Below the pieces are notes generated by a model. That model saw only the letters and a list, made by a program, of their open reading frames with translations, did no database searches and had not been told where the DNA came from. A stretch of DNA of 64,000 nt from Xenococcaceae cyanobacterium MO_188.B32 (GTDB lineage: Bacteria > Cyanobacteriota > Cyanobacteriia > Cyanobacteriales > Xenococcaceae): assembly GCA_030065635.1 (NCBI GenBank), contig JASJDJ010000002.1, positions 1 to 64,000 on the forward strand, in the 5' to 3' direction. Of this stretch, positions 13,347-19,157 are shown in pieces. The position numbers and the translations under genes are program-made. Every line of letters starts with the position of its first letter. Position 1 is the first letter of the stretch.

Positions 13347-16300
13347 TCAAAAAATAGAATCAGAAAAAGAAGTGAATAGTTCACCTATTTCTAAACCATT
13401 CTTATCGATCTCGGAGTCCGTGACGCTAACTTCTAGTGGCTTTGACCAACCAATCTGAGCATCATTGTCGATGGCGCGAACTTGTAAAATATAGTCTCCA
13501 GGAGCGTCAGGATTCCAGTCAACGTTCCAACCGTCCGAATTATCTCTATCCTCAGAAATTAGTTCATCATTGAGCCAAAACTCTACTCGTTTTATTTGCC
13601 CTAAATAATCCTCCGCCGTTGCTTCTCGCTCAGACCAAGTCACATTGAGATTGTCATCTAACTGTTCTTCAAACAGCCAACCAGGATTGTCTGGAGTACC
13701 AGACAGAATACTGAGAGAACTTTGCTTCCATTCCATGGCAATTGGTCCGCGATTACCCGTATCCGAGGCATTGGCATTGATTGTGACTGTTTCCCCCACA
13801 CTAAAATTTTGACCGGCAGTTAAACCCACAATTTCTGCGGTGGGTGCTTGGTTGATGCTCCGATAGAGAGCAAAATTATCTGGGTCAGTAAAATCGTAAG
13901 CTTGAGAGCTATTGCGATAGACAGTCGGTAAGTCGGTCAGAGGATTGTGAATCATCCGCAAAAAAGAACCATCCGTTCCATTCAGGGTGACATCTCCTTG
14001 GGATAATTGGGAAAGATCGAGTGTCTTCGATTTGACGGCGTTTTTGAAGCTATCGAAGTCTGAGAATACGCCAGGTTGGTTACTATTTCCTTGTTCGCCA
14101 ATTTCGAGGGCAAATCCAGCGTAGTTATCCCCTACTGTGTCAAAAACATACTCTATTTCACTAGCATTTTTAACTCCGTTAGCCTGGGTTCTAAAAACTA
14201 GATTAATTGGTCGCAAAGCAATCCAAGTGTTTTCTAACTGAAAGAACCAAATACCCTCATCTTGAATTACCGTGCCAGTACCTCCTGGTGCTAAAGTTGG
14301 ATCGGGAGCCATAAAGTAGAAAGAGTTACCATCAGCAGGTCTTAACCAGAGAGCCATATTTTGATATTGGGCAATCCGATCCTCAAGGTTTTTAGAGGCT
14401 GCAAGATCGAGGGAACTAGTATTGGCACCAAAAAAATCTACCCCGCGAACAGAATTATCGACAGTTAATTTAAAGGTGGTCACATTCCAAAGTTCTGCCT
14501 GATAATCGCTAGGGGAGTCTGGTGCTACTAAGGTTCCTAGATGATAGGTGTTCCCGTAGTAGTTGGTTTCAAAATATCTTGGTGTATCAATGGCAGGAGT
14601 TTTGGGTTCAGATGGCTTAGAGGCAATGTCTTCTAAATAGGGTGATTTAGTGGCTAAAATCTCTATATGTTTGCTAAAGTCTTTTTGCGCAAGATCGACT
14701 ACAGCTTGAGGTGGTCTGTAACTACTTAAAAGAGCATGAATACTATTGCTCTTGTCAGGATCGGGATCGGATAAGGGTGAGTCGCCAAAATATAAGTGGT
14801 AGAAAGAAGCAGAACCATTAAAGGGAAGCTGAGGTGTAGTATTACGCAGATTTGTCCCCCCAAGACCACCACGGTAATATTTAAGGGCAGCAGCAGTAAA
14901 GTTTTGGTCTAAAGAGGCTTTAGCTGCTTTTTTGATTTTTGCTCCCTCGCCTTCTTCTGGTGCAAAATCATACATATTGAGGTTAGCTGCTGCTGTCCAG
15001 GCAAAATAGTTAGGAGAATCCCATTCTCTGATGCCAGTTTGCCAATTACTGGCTACTCTTTCAAGATAATTTTGGGCATAGCGATCGCGATTAACGGTAT
15101 TACCTGTTTCCTCTGCCATCAGGTAAATAGCTACTTCTCGCATTGCTTCTAAGTTATCGGTATTGCGGATATCAACCCAACTGTTGCGACCACTAGGTGT
15201 CCAGTTTTCTCCACCGACTAACTCTGGGTCTTTATCGGGATTATAAATCGGATTGGGTCGCCATAAAGGATCGCTATAAGCAATTCCCGTCTCCGCATCA
15301 ACCCAGTTATCGTCTACCCAAGTATCTGCCCCTAAATACATGGTATCGGTATAACTAGAGTCGAGATAATCCAGTCCCAAACTCTGACTTAATTGACCAA
15401 AATAAAAATATTTAGTTACCTGAGTTTTGAGAGTAAAGCTAGGGAAATAGTCTACACCTTGAGTTAAAAAAGATAAACTATCTCCACCCACATCGCCAGC
15501 TTGCAGAAAGTTTTTTGCTTGCTCGATCGAGTTACTGTTATTATTGGCAACACCCCAAATATAGGAAAGCATGGCACGGGGATAGGAGCGTTTTTCTTGC
15601 TCGAAAAATCTACCGCCGTAACTTGTCTTGCTTCCTTGTGCTGCAATAACCTGGTTATAACGCTTGATAAATTCGTTTTCCTGCTCCTCTGTCCAGCTTG
15701 TATTCAGAAACTGCTCGGAAACTGGATAGGGAGTAACATATATATATTCTGCTCCGTCAATTTCTTTCTTAAAGAAAAGCTCATTAGCAACAGTAGAACT
15801 AGAACTATAAGAATTATATGCCACTACATCTACTAGCCGTCCACCACCAGTAGCAAAGCCCACTTCCACCTTGCCAAAATCATTTAGGTTCAAGCCTGGG
15901 GCGAAAGTAGCAATGGGAGTCAATTCAGTCGAACTAAATCCATTCAAGTCCAGATCGAGCCATTGCTGAGTATTACCTACTGTCTGCATCCACCAATTAC
16001 CGTTATTAATTGGTTTAACAGAATTAGCAACTTGTCCGCGAATTATCCAAGCATTTAAAGCTTGACCTTTAGTATTGACCAATAGTTCACCAGTTTGTCG
16101 ATTATAGGCAAAAATTGGTTCTTCTTCACTGCCATTAGGAATAATATAGTCATTATTTAAGGCTGAGTCGGGATTATAAGTATAAACAGATTGACTTTCC
16201 GCAAAATTAGGGTCGTGAATTTGACCGAGGTAAAGCTGCAACTGCGCTAAATCATCGCGATCGATATCACCATCATTATCTGCGTCTCCAGTCTGCATAG

Positions 16301-19157
16301 TGGGAGTTCCGCCTAAATTTTGATAGGTATTCCAGCGAATGAAATCAGCAGCATCGGTACGATAGTCTAGATTAAAATCGGTTTTTTTGGTGATACCCAC
16401 ATGAATATCCTTAAGACCAATTTGAGCATCGTTAACATTGACATTGTTGCGGAGCAAATCTACATTAGTTCCACCACGCTGGAGAAAAATTTCAATCTCA
16501 TTAAATAGAGAATAATTGGGGTCTTGGTTGCGTGGTAATTGATTAACCATTTCACTAGGGACATAGTAGTCACCAAGTCGATTATTACCCCATTGCTCAA
16601 TATTCGTTGTTCCCGTGCCCGATCGATCGCGCCATAAAACTAGATTAGTATATTCTCGATCGAGATCGGCTGCGGTCATGGTTGCCTCAAAGTAAGCTTT
16701 CTTTTGCGCTTCTTTCTGAGGATCGCTACCGTCAATTTCCTGATTTTCTACATTAGCAGTGAGTTGAACGCGATCGGTACTAGCGACATTAAGACTAACA
16801 AATCTGCTTTCGGTTTCAAAAGATAAATCGTGTCCGAAATCAGGAGGCGGAGTTAATTCGGGGTCAGCTTGCACCATCGCCACTTGGACGTGAAACCTTT
16901 CCCGTGAGTTTTTGGCAACATCACTAAAAGTTTGGTAGCGGACTACTGCTACTTCATCCAATTTATTGATGCCAAACTGTCTCTTTCCTGAAGGATGGGT
17001 AGTTTCTGGATCGGGAATATTAAAAACTAAGTTATCAGCAAAAGAACCCCCACCTTCAGCAATCCGATTAGATAAAGCAAAATCAAAGTTACGCTGGTTG
17101 GGAGGGCGAAAAGCTATGCCCGAACCATTAATTGTCCAGTAATCAGAAGTATCTGCTGCAAAAGCACCAGTAGTAAAATCTTCATCAACGATAACCCCTG
17201 CACCTAGAGAATTGGGGCTAGTCAAGGCGATCGCTTCTGTGGGTGTACTAACTCCCGTATTAGTACGATCTACGATAACTCCTGCACCTAAAGAAGTAGG
17301 GCTAGTCAAGGCGATCGCCTCTGTGGGTTTACTCGCTCCCGTATTGCTATCATCACTTTGAATCGCTACAACTCTGTAGCGGAGAGCCCGATCTCTTGGT
17401 GCCATAAAATCTACCCATGCTTGTTGATTATGAATTGAACCCATACTCTGGCGAGGTCGATAAGCGATGGTTGTCCATTCACCACCCTCTATACTTCGTT
17501 CGACTCGAAAACCAATTTCATTAGTTGTTGTATCTTCCCAAGTAATCAAGACACTATCTTCTTCTGGCTGTACTTTTGCCGTTACCTTAATTGGTGCAGA
17601 AACTGAACCTAGAGGATCGGCAGTAATTACATCCCTAATGCCTCCAGCGTCAGTCCTTATACCACCCTCCGCATTATTAGCAATAAAAGCACTATCAATC
17701 AGATCGTTATTACCTGCTTTAGCATGACCTACCCATCCAGGGGTTTGATTCCAAGCACTGAGATGACCGTAATTATGTACATCGTAACCACCAAAATAAC
17801 CTGCTTCTCCAGAACCCTGAAGGTGAGTATTATTAGTTATCGCCACAGAATTAATGTCCGTACCACCGTGACGCTGCCACAAAATTCCCTCACCATCATT
17901 ACCAGGATCGGAACCAGTATTATTTAAGGTGTTACGATCGACCCAGATCGCTTTACCACTAAGATCGAAGGCGCGGGAAAGATTATCTGAAACCGAACCA
18001 CTACCCCCAGCTTGACTTTCTCTATAGCCATCTAGAGTAAGTTCATAAGTACCATCAAGACCATAAATAGCGGGAACATTTTCGGTTAAATATTCTCTTT
18101 CATTATGATTATTCCGAACAGTCATCCAAGTACCTGAAAGATCGTAACCTTTGTGACCGTGATTCCCAACCCAGTTATCTATAACCGCTACCCCTTCAGC
18201 ATAGTAACCAGCATCACTTTGATATGCCCCTAACATACTTTTATTGACATCGATACCGAGAGTTTTACCGTAATCAAACAATAAAGTACTTTCTGAATGG
18301 TTGTTAGTAATTTGATTGTATTTAAAGTTTTTCGTGCTAGGAGGTAAAGTATTATTAGCAACTAAGACTCGCGAACCATAAACGCCAATACGCGGTCCAA
18401 ATTTGGCCATGTAAAAGCCATCTTTGCCAAACCCTTCATCGATCGCATTATTAATAACTGCCGAATCTGTAAAACTACTACCAAAAACTAAACGACCTTT
18501 ACCTATACCCACTTCTGTACCCGATGTAGGCGAACCAGCAAAAGCATCCCAGGGATGAGTACCATCGGGTATGCGATTTGCCCAACTTGGTTTAACGCGA
18601 TCGCTTTTCCAACCCCCAGCAGTCGCCCAAGTTTCGCCCCATTCTCGCTCTGGTCCCCACCATAATGTTCCGCCAACCACATTAACCCAGACAAGTCCAA
18701 CATTGCTTACATCTTCGCTCGATTCATTTTCTGTGGGCATCAAGCCAATAAAATTCCAGTCGCGAGGAACTTCACCGCCTGCTTTGGTTTGCCAGGGAAA
18801 TTTAAAAGTGGTTAGCAAGTCTAAATTGCCATCATCTCTGGCAATGTTATCTTCTATAGGTGTAGCACCACGAATAACTACACCACTTTTGAGCATCAAT
18901 CCCCGACCATTGAAACCATCAGCGGGCATGGCAGAAAAATCATACTCGCCAGGAGGATAATATAGTACTCCACCTCCTTGGGCGTATAATTCATCCCGTG
19001 CATTTTCAAATTTGGCAAAATCATCAGAACCATTAGTATAAGTTCCCATATCGATCGTGTTATCCCACTTAATCTCATCAGTCCAGGCAGGATAGCCATC
19101 ATTGCCGTTGTAATAAGTCGCGATCGGATTATCTGTCGGTACTTTAGCCATCATCAT
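13347..19157 (-). CDS. Very large multidomain polysaccharide-active protein (beta-helix, FN3, dockerin-like, alpha/alpha-toroid, Ig)
   Basis: About 1,936 residues from an ATG at 19157 (MMMAKVPTDNP); a TTG at 19223 would add 22 residues but gives no clear signal peptide. The order below is in residues from 19223. A pectate-lyase-like right-handed beta-helix fills about 25-530 (GGGVLYYPPGEYDFS, then many N-rich turns). An FN3 domain is at about 535-630. Two 28-residue tandem repeats follow, then a beta-rich region. A dockerin-like calcium pair is at about 950-1000 (DYRTDAADFIRW and DADNDGDIDRDDL). A putative alpha/alpha-toroid plus beta-sandwich of lyase or hydrolase type fills about 1015-1740 (REWDSPNYFAWTAAANL). 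An Ig-like domain is at 1790-1935. A role in processing sheath or exopolysaccharide is inference. Confidence 0.75.
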   Translation of the reverse strand: MMMAKVPTDNPIATYYNGNDGYPAWTDEIKWDNTIDMGTYTNGSDDFAKFENARDELYAQGGGVLYYPPGEYDFSAMPADGFNGRGLMLKSGVVIRGATPIEDNIARDDGNLDLLTTFKFPWQTKAGGEVPRDWNFIGLMPTENESSEDVSNVGLVWVNVVGGTLWWGPEREWGETWATAGGWKSDRVKPSWANRIPDGTHPWDAFAGSPTSGTEVGIGKGRLVFGSSFTDSAVINNAIDEGFGKDGFYMAKFGPRIGVYGSRVLVANNTLPPSTKNFKYNQITNNHSESTLLFDYGKTLGIDVNKSMLGAYQSDAGYYAEGVAVIDNWVGNHGHKGYDLSGTWMTVRNNHNEREYLTENVPAIYGLDGTYELTLDGYRESQAGGSGSVSDNLSRAFDLSGKAIWVDRNTLNNTGSDPGNDGEGILWQRHGGTDINSVAITNNTHLQGSGEAGYFGGYDVHNYGHLSAWNQTPGWVGHAKAGNNDLIDSAFIANNAEGGIRTDAGGIRDVITADPLGSVSAPIKVTAKVQPEEDSVLITWEDTTTNEIGFRVERSIEGGEWTTIAYRPRQSMGSIHNQQAWVDFMAPRDRALRYRVVAIQSDDSNTGASKPTEAIALTSPTSLGAGVIVDRTNTGVSTPTEAIALTSPNSLGAGVIVDEDFTTGAFAADTSDYWTINGSGIAFRPPNQRNFDFALSNRIAEGGGSFADNLVFNIPDPETTHPSGKRQFGINKLDEVAVVRYQTFSDVAKNSRERFHVQVAMVQADPELTPPPDFGHDLSFETESRFVSLNVASTDRVQLTANVENQEIDGSDPQKEAQKKAYFEATMTAADLDREYTNLVLWRDRSGTGTTNIEQWGNNRLGDYYVPSEMVNQLPRNQDPNYSLFNEIEIFLQRGGTNVDLLRNNVNVNDAQIGLKDIHVGITKKTDFNLDYRTDAADFIRWNTYQNLGGTPTMQTGDADNDGDIDRDDLAQLQLYLGQIHDPNFAESQSVYTYNPDSALNNDYIIPNGSEEEPIFAYNRQTGELLVNTKGQALNAWIIRGQVANSVKPINNGNWWMQTVGNTQQWLDLDLNGFSSTELTPIATFAPGLNLNDFGKVEVGFATGGGRLVDVVAYNSYSSSSTVANELFFKKEIDGAEYIYVTPYPVSEQFLNTSWTEEQENEFIKRYNQVIAAQGSKTSYGGRFFEQEKRSYPRAMLSYIWGVANNNSNSIEQAKNFLQAGDVGGDSLSFLTQGVDYFPSFTLKTQVTKYFYFGQLSQSLGLDYLDSSYTDTMYLGADTWVDDNWVDAETGIAYSDPLWRPNPIYNPDKDPELVGGENWTPSGRNSWVDIRNTDNLEAMREVAIYLMAEETGNTVNRDRYAQNYLERVASNWQTGIREWDSPNYFAWTAAANLNMYDFAPEEGEGAKIKKAAKASLDQNFTAAALKYYRGGLGGTNLRNTTPQLPFNGSASFYHLYFGDSPLSDPDPDKSNSIHALLSSYRPPQAVVDLAQKDFSKHIEILATKSPYLEDIASKPSEPKTPAIDTPRYFETNYYGNTYHLGTLVAPDSPSDYQAELWNVTTFKLTVDNSVRGVDFFGANTSSLDLAASKNLEDRIAQYQNMALWLRPADGNSFYFMAPDPTLAPGGTGTVIQDEGIWFFQLENTWIALRPINLVFRTQANGVKNASEIEYVFDTVGDNYAGFALEIGEQGNSNQPGVFSDFDSFKNAVKSKTLDLSQLSQGDVTLNGTDGSFLRMIHNPLTDLPTVYRNSSQAYDFTDPDNFALYRSINQAPTAEIVGLTAGQNFSVGETVTINANASDTGNRGPIAMEWKQSSLSILSGTPDNPGWLFEEQLDDNLNVTWSEREATAEDYLGQIKRVEFWLNDELISEDRDNSDGWNVDWNPDAPGDYILQVRAIDNDAQIGWSKPLEVSVTDSEIDKNGLEIGELFTSFSDSIF
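17188..17355 (-). repeat. 84-bp tandem duplication inside the large protein gene
   Basis: Copies at 17188-17271 and 17272-17355 are close in sequence and each contains a HIP1 octamer (GCGATCGC). They encode two 28-residue units ending in SLGAGVIVD; the unit shared with the FN3 tail is PTEAIALTSP. The duplication is in frame. Confidence 0.85.

Follow-up and report, generated by a model that had tools for sequence, protein, structure and literature searches.

What does a cyanobacterium do with a single, very long polypeptide in which modules that elsewhere are separate proteins, two of them with enzyme-like folds, are strung together? The question arises from the minus strand of the window (the whole stretch of 64,000 nucleotides analyzed here), where the reading of open frames gives between positions 13347 and 19223 one frame of 1958 codons opening with TTG. 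To our knowledge, little is understood of the way in which sheath and slime polymers are cut, remodeled or released by the cyanobacteria that produce them, and only a handful of the enzymes have been identified. The reading that we prefer, with a probability of roughly 0.4, is that of a secreted two-headed modifier of the acidic exopolysaccharide or sheath of the cell itself.

The end of the gene had been given in the initial annotation as 19157, which is the first of three tandem ATG codons, the third being at 19151. In the comparison with the homologue from a second Xenococcaceae bin (G014), the segment preceding the ATG codons shows no conservation at the protein level (27% identity over 11 aligned codons, with Ka/Ks near 1.3), the remainder is conserved, and the third ATG is the only one of the three common to both sequences; translation therefore probably starts at about 19151. 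The most likely coding sequence extends from this ATG to a TGA and encodes 1934 residues. No signal peptide is seen when the sequence following this conserved start is read by eye rather than by a predictor, in line with the initial annotation, which had noted the lack of a classic one. The neighboring genes in the window, amidohydrolase-like and nuclease/helicase-like by eye, look unrelated to polysaccharides. The coordinates of all features are collected in Table 1; the sandwich past the toroid, the Big_7 repeats and the linker duplication, as well as the existence of the modules as separate proteins elsewhere, were absent from the initial annotation.

Table 1. Features of the multimodule gene. 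Positions are those of the window; residues (res) are counted from the TTG of the 1958-codon frame.
Feature	Position	Strand	Basis
Most likely coding sequence, third ATG to TGA, 1934 residues	13347..19151	-	Frame and conservation; open frame back to TTG 19223
Right-handed β-helix module, res 23-540, pectate-lyase/epimerase superfamily	17604..19157	-	Sequence matches
FN3-like segment, res 541-640	17304..17603	-	By eye; without Pfam FN3 match
Tandem duplicated linker, two 27-codon copies, 81% identical	17178..17342	-	Sequence matches
Orphan middle module, first part, res 670-948	16380..17216	-	Pfam and PDB searches without credible match
Dockerin-like double calcium-loop motif, res 949-1000	16224..16379	-	Below Pfam cut-off
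Middle module, last part, res 1006-1149	15777..16208	-	Conserved in separate proteins
α/α toroid, res 1150-1515	14679..15776	-	Alignment, AlphaFold2 model, fold searches
NTDN motif (N1354, N1357), candidate carboxylate-neutralizing Asn of a uronate lyase	15153..15164	-	Alignment; compared with PL33/PL35
Y1406, candidate acid/base Tyr	15006..15008	-	Alignment
Antiparallel β-sandwich after the toroid, res 1516-1795	13839..14678	-	Alignment, AlphaFold2 model, fold searches
H1561, His in three fusion homologues only	14541..14543	-	Alignment
Ig-like region, matched by Big_7 in two stretches (best: res 1868-1915)	13404..13838	-	Pfam
C-terminal tail ending ELFTSFSDSIF, possible type I secretion signal	13350..13403	-	Common to LamG proteins of the same bacterial family

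That a single polypeptide is encoded, as initially claimed, agrees with the unbroken frame and with the G014 bin, where the same order of modules is repeated over residues 23–1700 with 82% identity and without a stop until the contig ends. A third copy, from the genus of the window (G001), covers residues 1431–1938 at the edge of a contig and is likewise 82% identical. The upstream neighbors of the G014 copy, one of them glycosyltransferase-like by eye, differ from those of the window. Ka/Ks ratios between the window and G014 were obtained for seven segments up to residue 1700, the Big_7 region and the tail lying outside the comparison: 0.10 for the helix, 0.18 for the FN3-like segment, 0.16 and 0.29 for the first and last parts of the middle module, 0.05 for the dockerin-like motif, 0.065 for the toroid and 0.094 for the sandwich as far as residue 1700. 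The toroid helices, 87% identical, are thus the most constrained large segment. The fused protein is under purifying selection over its comparable part and, since the fusion also recurs in G014, it is a maintained gene. The source genome is fragmented (281 contigs), which speaks for an artefact of assembly or frame joining adjacent genes, but the presence of the fusion in a second bin and the purifying selection on all seven compared segments make this explanation highly improbable.

The helix, the middle module with its dockerin-like motif and the toroid with its sandwich are separate proteins elsewhere in cyanobacteria and are joined here together with Ig-like repeats. Of 386 phylum genomes searched, 25 (24 besides the genome of the window) match the toroid region and 12, again including its own, the helix region; the other 11 helix genomes comprise eight with stand-alone proteins, two with fusions to a Wzy-like protein (G027 and G395) and one with a weak match (G079, E 6 × 10−5). 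Helix and toroid are both present in 2 of these 11 genomes (G059, G202), to be compared with a toroid in 24 of 385 overall, counts that are too few to mean anything. The middle region has no match in the other 385 of the 386 phylum genomes, and a search of 60 genomes of relatives recovered it, besides G014, in G004, G010 and G044. There it forms separate frames of 687–722 codons, without a signal peptide by eye, that begin at about residues 672–683 of the fusion, within some 25 residues, past the duplicated linker, the second copy of which runs into sequence near the N-terminus of these separate proteins. As their start falls right behind the tandem duplication, the seam of the fusion is still visible. 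The genome of the window itself contains a further copy of this module, 66% identical (contig C200, L057:4908-5936); its 343-codon frame, with an early stop and no clear start, is probably a pseudogene. The stand-alone toroid frames measure 606–685 codons, the 162-codon fragment of G319 and the split frame of G036 being excluded. Their N-termini, read with a regular expression and a hydropathy window instead of a predictor, contain a hydrophobic stretch in 25/25 cases and a lipobox-like motif in 13/25. The thioredoxin-like gene adjoining the toroid in L058 and L060 was discarded as looking like shared chromosome order.

For the toroid, an alignment of 29 sequences was built from the window, its two fusion homologues and 20 nearer and 6 distant stand-alone relatives, leaving aside the duplicate loci L013-L015, L017, L039 and L040 and the 154-residue fragment L032. 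The longer half of the split frame (L011, G036) was used, and the distant matches in G007 and G014:C49 served as neighborhoods only. The nearer relatives are 37–46% identical to the window and the protein of Nostoc sp. PCC 7524 is 34% identical. The AlphaFold2 model calculated from this alignment (pLDDT 80, pTM 0.86) presents a helical toroid followed by an antiparallel β-sandwich. Compared with the PDB by Foldseek, its best row is a PL33 hyaluronan lyase (E 1.7 × 10−7) and the 17 rows that reach E 0.001 or better are without exception polysaccharide lyases of toroid-plus-sandwich type (PL33, PL17, PL12, PL15 and what we take to be PL8, a label that we likewise assume for the hyaluronate lyase row of VIA-align), in support of the toroid-like region proposed initially. 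The TM-scores of the PL33 rows are modest (0.34–0.41), so that kinship to one lyase family is not secure. VIA-align ranks first a GH105 hydrolase (Z 11.7, 255 residues), aligned over the toroid alone, and returns a hyaluronate lyase, aligned across the two domains with 479 residues (Z 11.2), as well as a PL35 chondroitinase (Z 10.8, 421 residues), a Z of 11 being within reach of unrelated helical models; PL33 is not among the best 50 matches listed. The predicted membership of the toroid-plus-sandwich fold class looks secure.

The sequence libraries searched return no enzyme for this fold. The toroid profile finds nothing among PDB sequences up to an E of 10, Pfam and NCBIfam assign none of the 29 members to a credible family, and hhalign against eight cyanobacterial Hepar_II_III proteins gives a probability of 0.1. 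Across Pfam, NCBIfam, PHROGs and PDB sequences (NCBIfam and PHROGs being searched with the whole protein, NCBIfam also with the 29 toroid members), no enzyme family exceeds the cut-off for any module, and the AlgE match of the helix described below is the sole enzyme-like match retained. In these libraries, the domains hence do not resolve to one known enzyme family. The Pfam matches G2P_X_C (14/29 members, best E 5 × 10−4, 16.7 bits against a cut-off of 25 in one member), YopE and crAss_CARGO2 and the NCBIfam match ChrS (3/29) were put down to chance because they concern the wrong kind of protein and are short or sub-threshold. A literature search of titles and abstract openings found the protein named in no title.

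The candidate active site was located by comparison with PL33 and PL35. Two published reports (PMC11848413, PMC12088678) give as catalytic residues N238, Y291 and H444 for PL33 and N192, Y246 and H401 for PL35, which corresponds to 53–54 residues from Asn to Tyr. In the window protein, N1354 and N1357 of the NTDN motif (residues 1354–1357) stand 52 and 49 residues ahead of Y1406. The column of Y1406 contains Tyr in all 28 aligned sequences that cover it; among the nearer sequences covering the site, N1354 is Asn in 22/22 and N1357 in 21/22, with Gly in L007. The six distant relatives have TENH at the place aligned with NTDN, and a shift of the alignment by one residue would, as we read it, pair their Asn with N1357. 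From the fold match and the retained Asn/Tyr pair we infer that the toroid is a candidate uronate lyase. The third residue is less constant: His occupies the H1561 column in the fusions of the window, G014 and G001 only, 20 of the stand-alone relatives having Gln there and the other 6 Ser. H1561 lies 155 residues past Y1406, the corresponding spacing being 153–155 in PL33/PL35 and 142–147 in the stand-alone relatives. Conversely, H1252 and H1409, both conserved in the nearer stand-alone toroids and the latter nearly constant, are replaced in the fusion by Phe and Trp. The exchange seen at H1561 and H1409 may mean that the catalytic His has moved, or it may be coincidental. Overall, of 160 columns with at least 95% conservation in the 20 stand-alone toroids, the fusion keeps 121 (42/53 once the distant relatives are added), and its toroid-plus-sandwich keeps 55 of the 70 highly conserved D/E/H/K/R/N/Y/C/Q columns of the stand-alone relatives.

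Domain-wise structure prediction, suggested as a check in the initial annotation, was successful for the toroid half, whereas residues 23–1155 (16 sequences) gave a poor model with a pLDDT of 37, which was kept out of the fold searches. The β-helix assignment of the N-terminal module is supported by sequence matches: residues 55–136 match AlgE4 in the PDB sequence search (E 7 × 10−6) and the family profile matches the AlgE4 entry 2pyg (E 1.3 × 10−7) on the N-terminal cap and a weak later stretch. At the level of sequence, this agrees with the pectate-lyase-like helix initially proposed. PF12708 is matched by 10 of the 12 helix members, the helix of the window not being among them. The pattern Tyr-x-x-Asp-x-His of AlgE is absent from 12/12 aligned helices; Asp-x-His occurs in the two fusion helices only (DVH at residue 481 of the window protein), and there position −3 is not Tyr. 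The fusion helix retains 58 of 146 conserved columns, mostly Gly or structural residues, the polar ones including D349, N350, R417 and D443.

Among the remaining parts, the Big_7 Ig-like repeats near the C-terminus are matched by Pfam (E 1.2 × 10−10). The FN3 domain of the initial annotation can be followed by eye as a segment but has no Pfam FN3 match at E up to 1. As for its dockerin-type calcium loops, the motif is conserved among the related middle-module proteins but scores 15.2 and 16.5 bits, under the Pfam cut-off of 22.9. Cohesin matches over the cut-off were obtained in 3 of 4 genomes tested, including that of the window, where the matching protein (contig C14, L136:898-2628) has dockerin-like repeats and an FKBP-like end by eye and no signal peptide seen by eye. 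A pairing of the dockerin-like motif with this cohesin-like protein is possible.

These binding-type modules, Big_7, dockerin-like and (by eye) FN3-like, flank both enzyme-like folds and could also belong to a non-catalytic matrix protein in which the two folds now serve as sugar-binding domains of an adhesin or sheath scaffold. Such a protein is a real possibility in view of the strong divergence of the helix, the sandwich His missing from the stand-alone toroids, and the LamG-type domains of three proteins with the same tail, one of which also has FG-GAP-like repeats by eye. A toroid that had become a mere binding domain does not sit easily with its Ka/Ks and identity to G014 and with the retention of most of its conserved functional-type columns, and here we continue to favor an exported modifier of the polysaccharide of the cell.

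Links with polysaccharide synthesis come from the separate modules. In G027 and G395, a β-helix follows an O-antigen-ligase/Wzy_C-type domain within one frame (Wzy_C E 1.3 × 10−12 in G027, by similarity in G395). These Wzy-like membrane proteins with a β-helix, in frames of about 1000 codons (L045:400-3417 and L046:418-3405, respectively), are possibly polymerases with a built-in polymer editor. As for the toroid, a Wzy-like gene lies directly upstream of it, with a slight overlap, on plasmid pNOS7524.01 of Nostoc sp. PCC 7524 and in G127, and in G379 and G319 Wzy-like fragments are found next to the toroid, which in G319 is truncated; the Wzy-like proteins adjacent to toroids are 38–47% identical to the G027 domain. 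The pair on pNOS7524.01 (L138:5923-8680) is annotated as "O-antigen ligase family protein" and "hypothetical protein". An Anabaena cylindrica plasmid carries another toroid gene, related but shorter (L139:6950-7834). Either module may hence be the direct partner of one Wzy-like subfamily, by fusion for the helix (G027, G395) and as neighbor for the toroid (Nostoc, G127). The association is limited in extent: a Wzy-like neighbor is present in 5 of 25 toroid stretches (4 records, fusion loci excluded) and absent in 20, and a Wzy-like partner is present in 2 of 11 helix stretches and absent in 9. Among 24 chosen genomes, mostly carriers of toroid or helix, there are six Wzy-like copies at E below 10−60, of which two (G127, G027) are next to a toroid or helix and the other four are not, and the genome of the window has no relative of the Wzy-like protein. 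This partnership, seen at the level of gene order and sequence, would tie helix and toroid units to an exopolysaccharide in a way that is suggestive, not general.

The same links bear on a third explanation, a digestive enzyme for foreign polysaccharides such as algal alginate or ulvan. The alginate lyase families PL15 and PL17 among the structural rows would fit such an enzyme, as would the dockerin-like motif together with a cohesin-like protein in the same genome; we nevertheless hold it to be unlikely, given that no utilization cluster is apparent by eye beside the gene and that some relatives adjoin a biosynthetic, Wzy-like protein.

As regards export, type I secretion is a plausible route. 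A signal peptide is likewise missing from the G014 homologue and, by eye, from the related middle-module proteins. Two type I HlyD adaptors of the genome of the window score above the curated cut-off, a number also reached by 1 of 14 control genomes; ABC transporters are present in 7/7 genomes and 14/14 controls and are uninformative. The C-terminal tail resembles the ends of the middle-module LamG proteins of G004 and G010 and of an FG-GAP-like/LamG protein of G010, the LamG domains being a Pfam match in one of the three and seen by eye in the others; none of the three has a signal peptide by eye. The last of these proteins (L132:2054-5584), FG-GAP-like by eye with two LamG-like domains, ends in LFTSFSNSIL, a tail identical to that of the G004 middle-module protein and nearly so to that of the window. 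That the tail follows LamG in the relatives but not in the fusion is a hint that it has a role of its own. In the G001 homologue the tail is a different one, which weakens the argument for export from the shared tail. A degenerate pattern of the tail occurs at 44 places in 27 genomes of the family; among 30 examined, four end frames of at least 500 codons, two end 68-codon frames and the others end shorter frames or a TGG. In the genome of the window, a shorter pattern is found at 7 places, against 2 for the reversed control, and the one long frame ending in this way is that of the window.

A two-headed modifier of the cell's own acidic polymer would work as follows. The protein would leave the cytoplasm without a signal peptide via a type I (ABC/HlyD/TolC) system, and calcium would aid its folding outside the cell. 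The Ig-like and dockerin-like parts would anchor it to the matrix or to a partner, while the cleft of the toroid would bind a chain containing uronic acid and cut it by β-elimination assisted by the Asn/Tyr pair; the β-helix would act on the same chain, which it might epimerize, cleave or only grip. The new polysaccharide-degrading or sheath-modifying enzyme suggested in the initial annotation is a reasonable proposal in view of the predicted uronate-lyase fold of the toroid and of the Wzy-like links of both folds in some other genomes, but the helix lacks the AlgE motif. A bolder extension, which we regard as rather doubtful, is that the toroid founds a new group of polysaccharide lyases (or epimerases), whose exported and lipoprotein forms, distributed among cyanobacteria, trim what one particular Wzy-like polymerase makes; the fusion would then have added the helix, the second trimming domain carried by the same polymerase elsewhere, and its catalytic His would now sit in the sandwich instead of the toroid. 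What is new is the way in which known folds are combined, together with a sequence family that has no counterpart in the libraries searched; the novelty lies more in this toroid family and in its Wzy link than in the chimera. This protein and its stand-alone relatives, the one of Nostoc sp. PCC 7524 among them, can be named as candidates, for which a putative active site and a possible polymerase partner are proposed.

Comparing the protein with known systems, the closest parallel over the whole length of the two domains is offered by the heparinase II/III-like families PL33, PL35, PL12 and PL17 and by PL8, which have the same toroid-plus-sandwich fold and a close spacing from Asn to Tyr. In contrast to these lyases, no sequence similarity to them was found by Pfam, NCBIfam, PDB or hhalign searches, the fold is here part of a 1934-residue multimodule protein, and none of the 26 stand-alone relatives has, at the H1561 column, a counterpart of the sandwich His found in PL12/17/33/35. 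The mannuronan C5-epimerases AlgE of Azotobacter likewise begin with a β-helix-type module, whose counterpart here matches AlgE4 in its N-terminal cap. A published account (PMC7385640) describes AlgE as modular enzymes exported by an ABC transporter, with Tyr149, Asp152, His154 and Asp178 as catalytic residues; the protein of the window differs from them in the absence of Tyr-x-x-Asp-x-His and of RTX-type R-modules by Pfam. Finally, the stand-alone toroids, such as WP_051039249.1 of Nostoc sp. PCC 7524, are homologous to residues 1150–1795 and differ in being unfused and, for the 20 nearer ones, in carrying Gln at the position of H1561.
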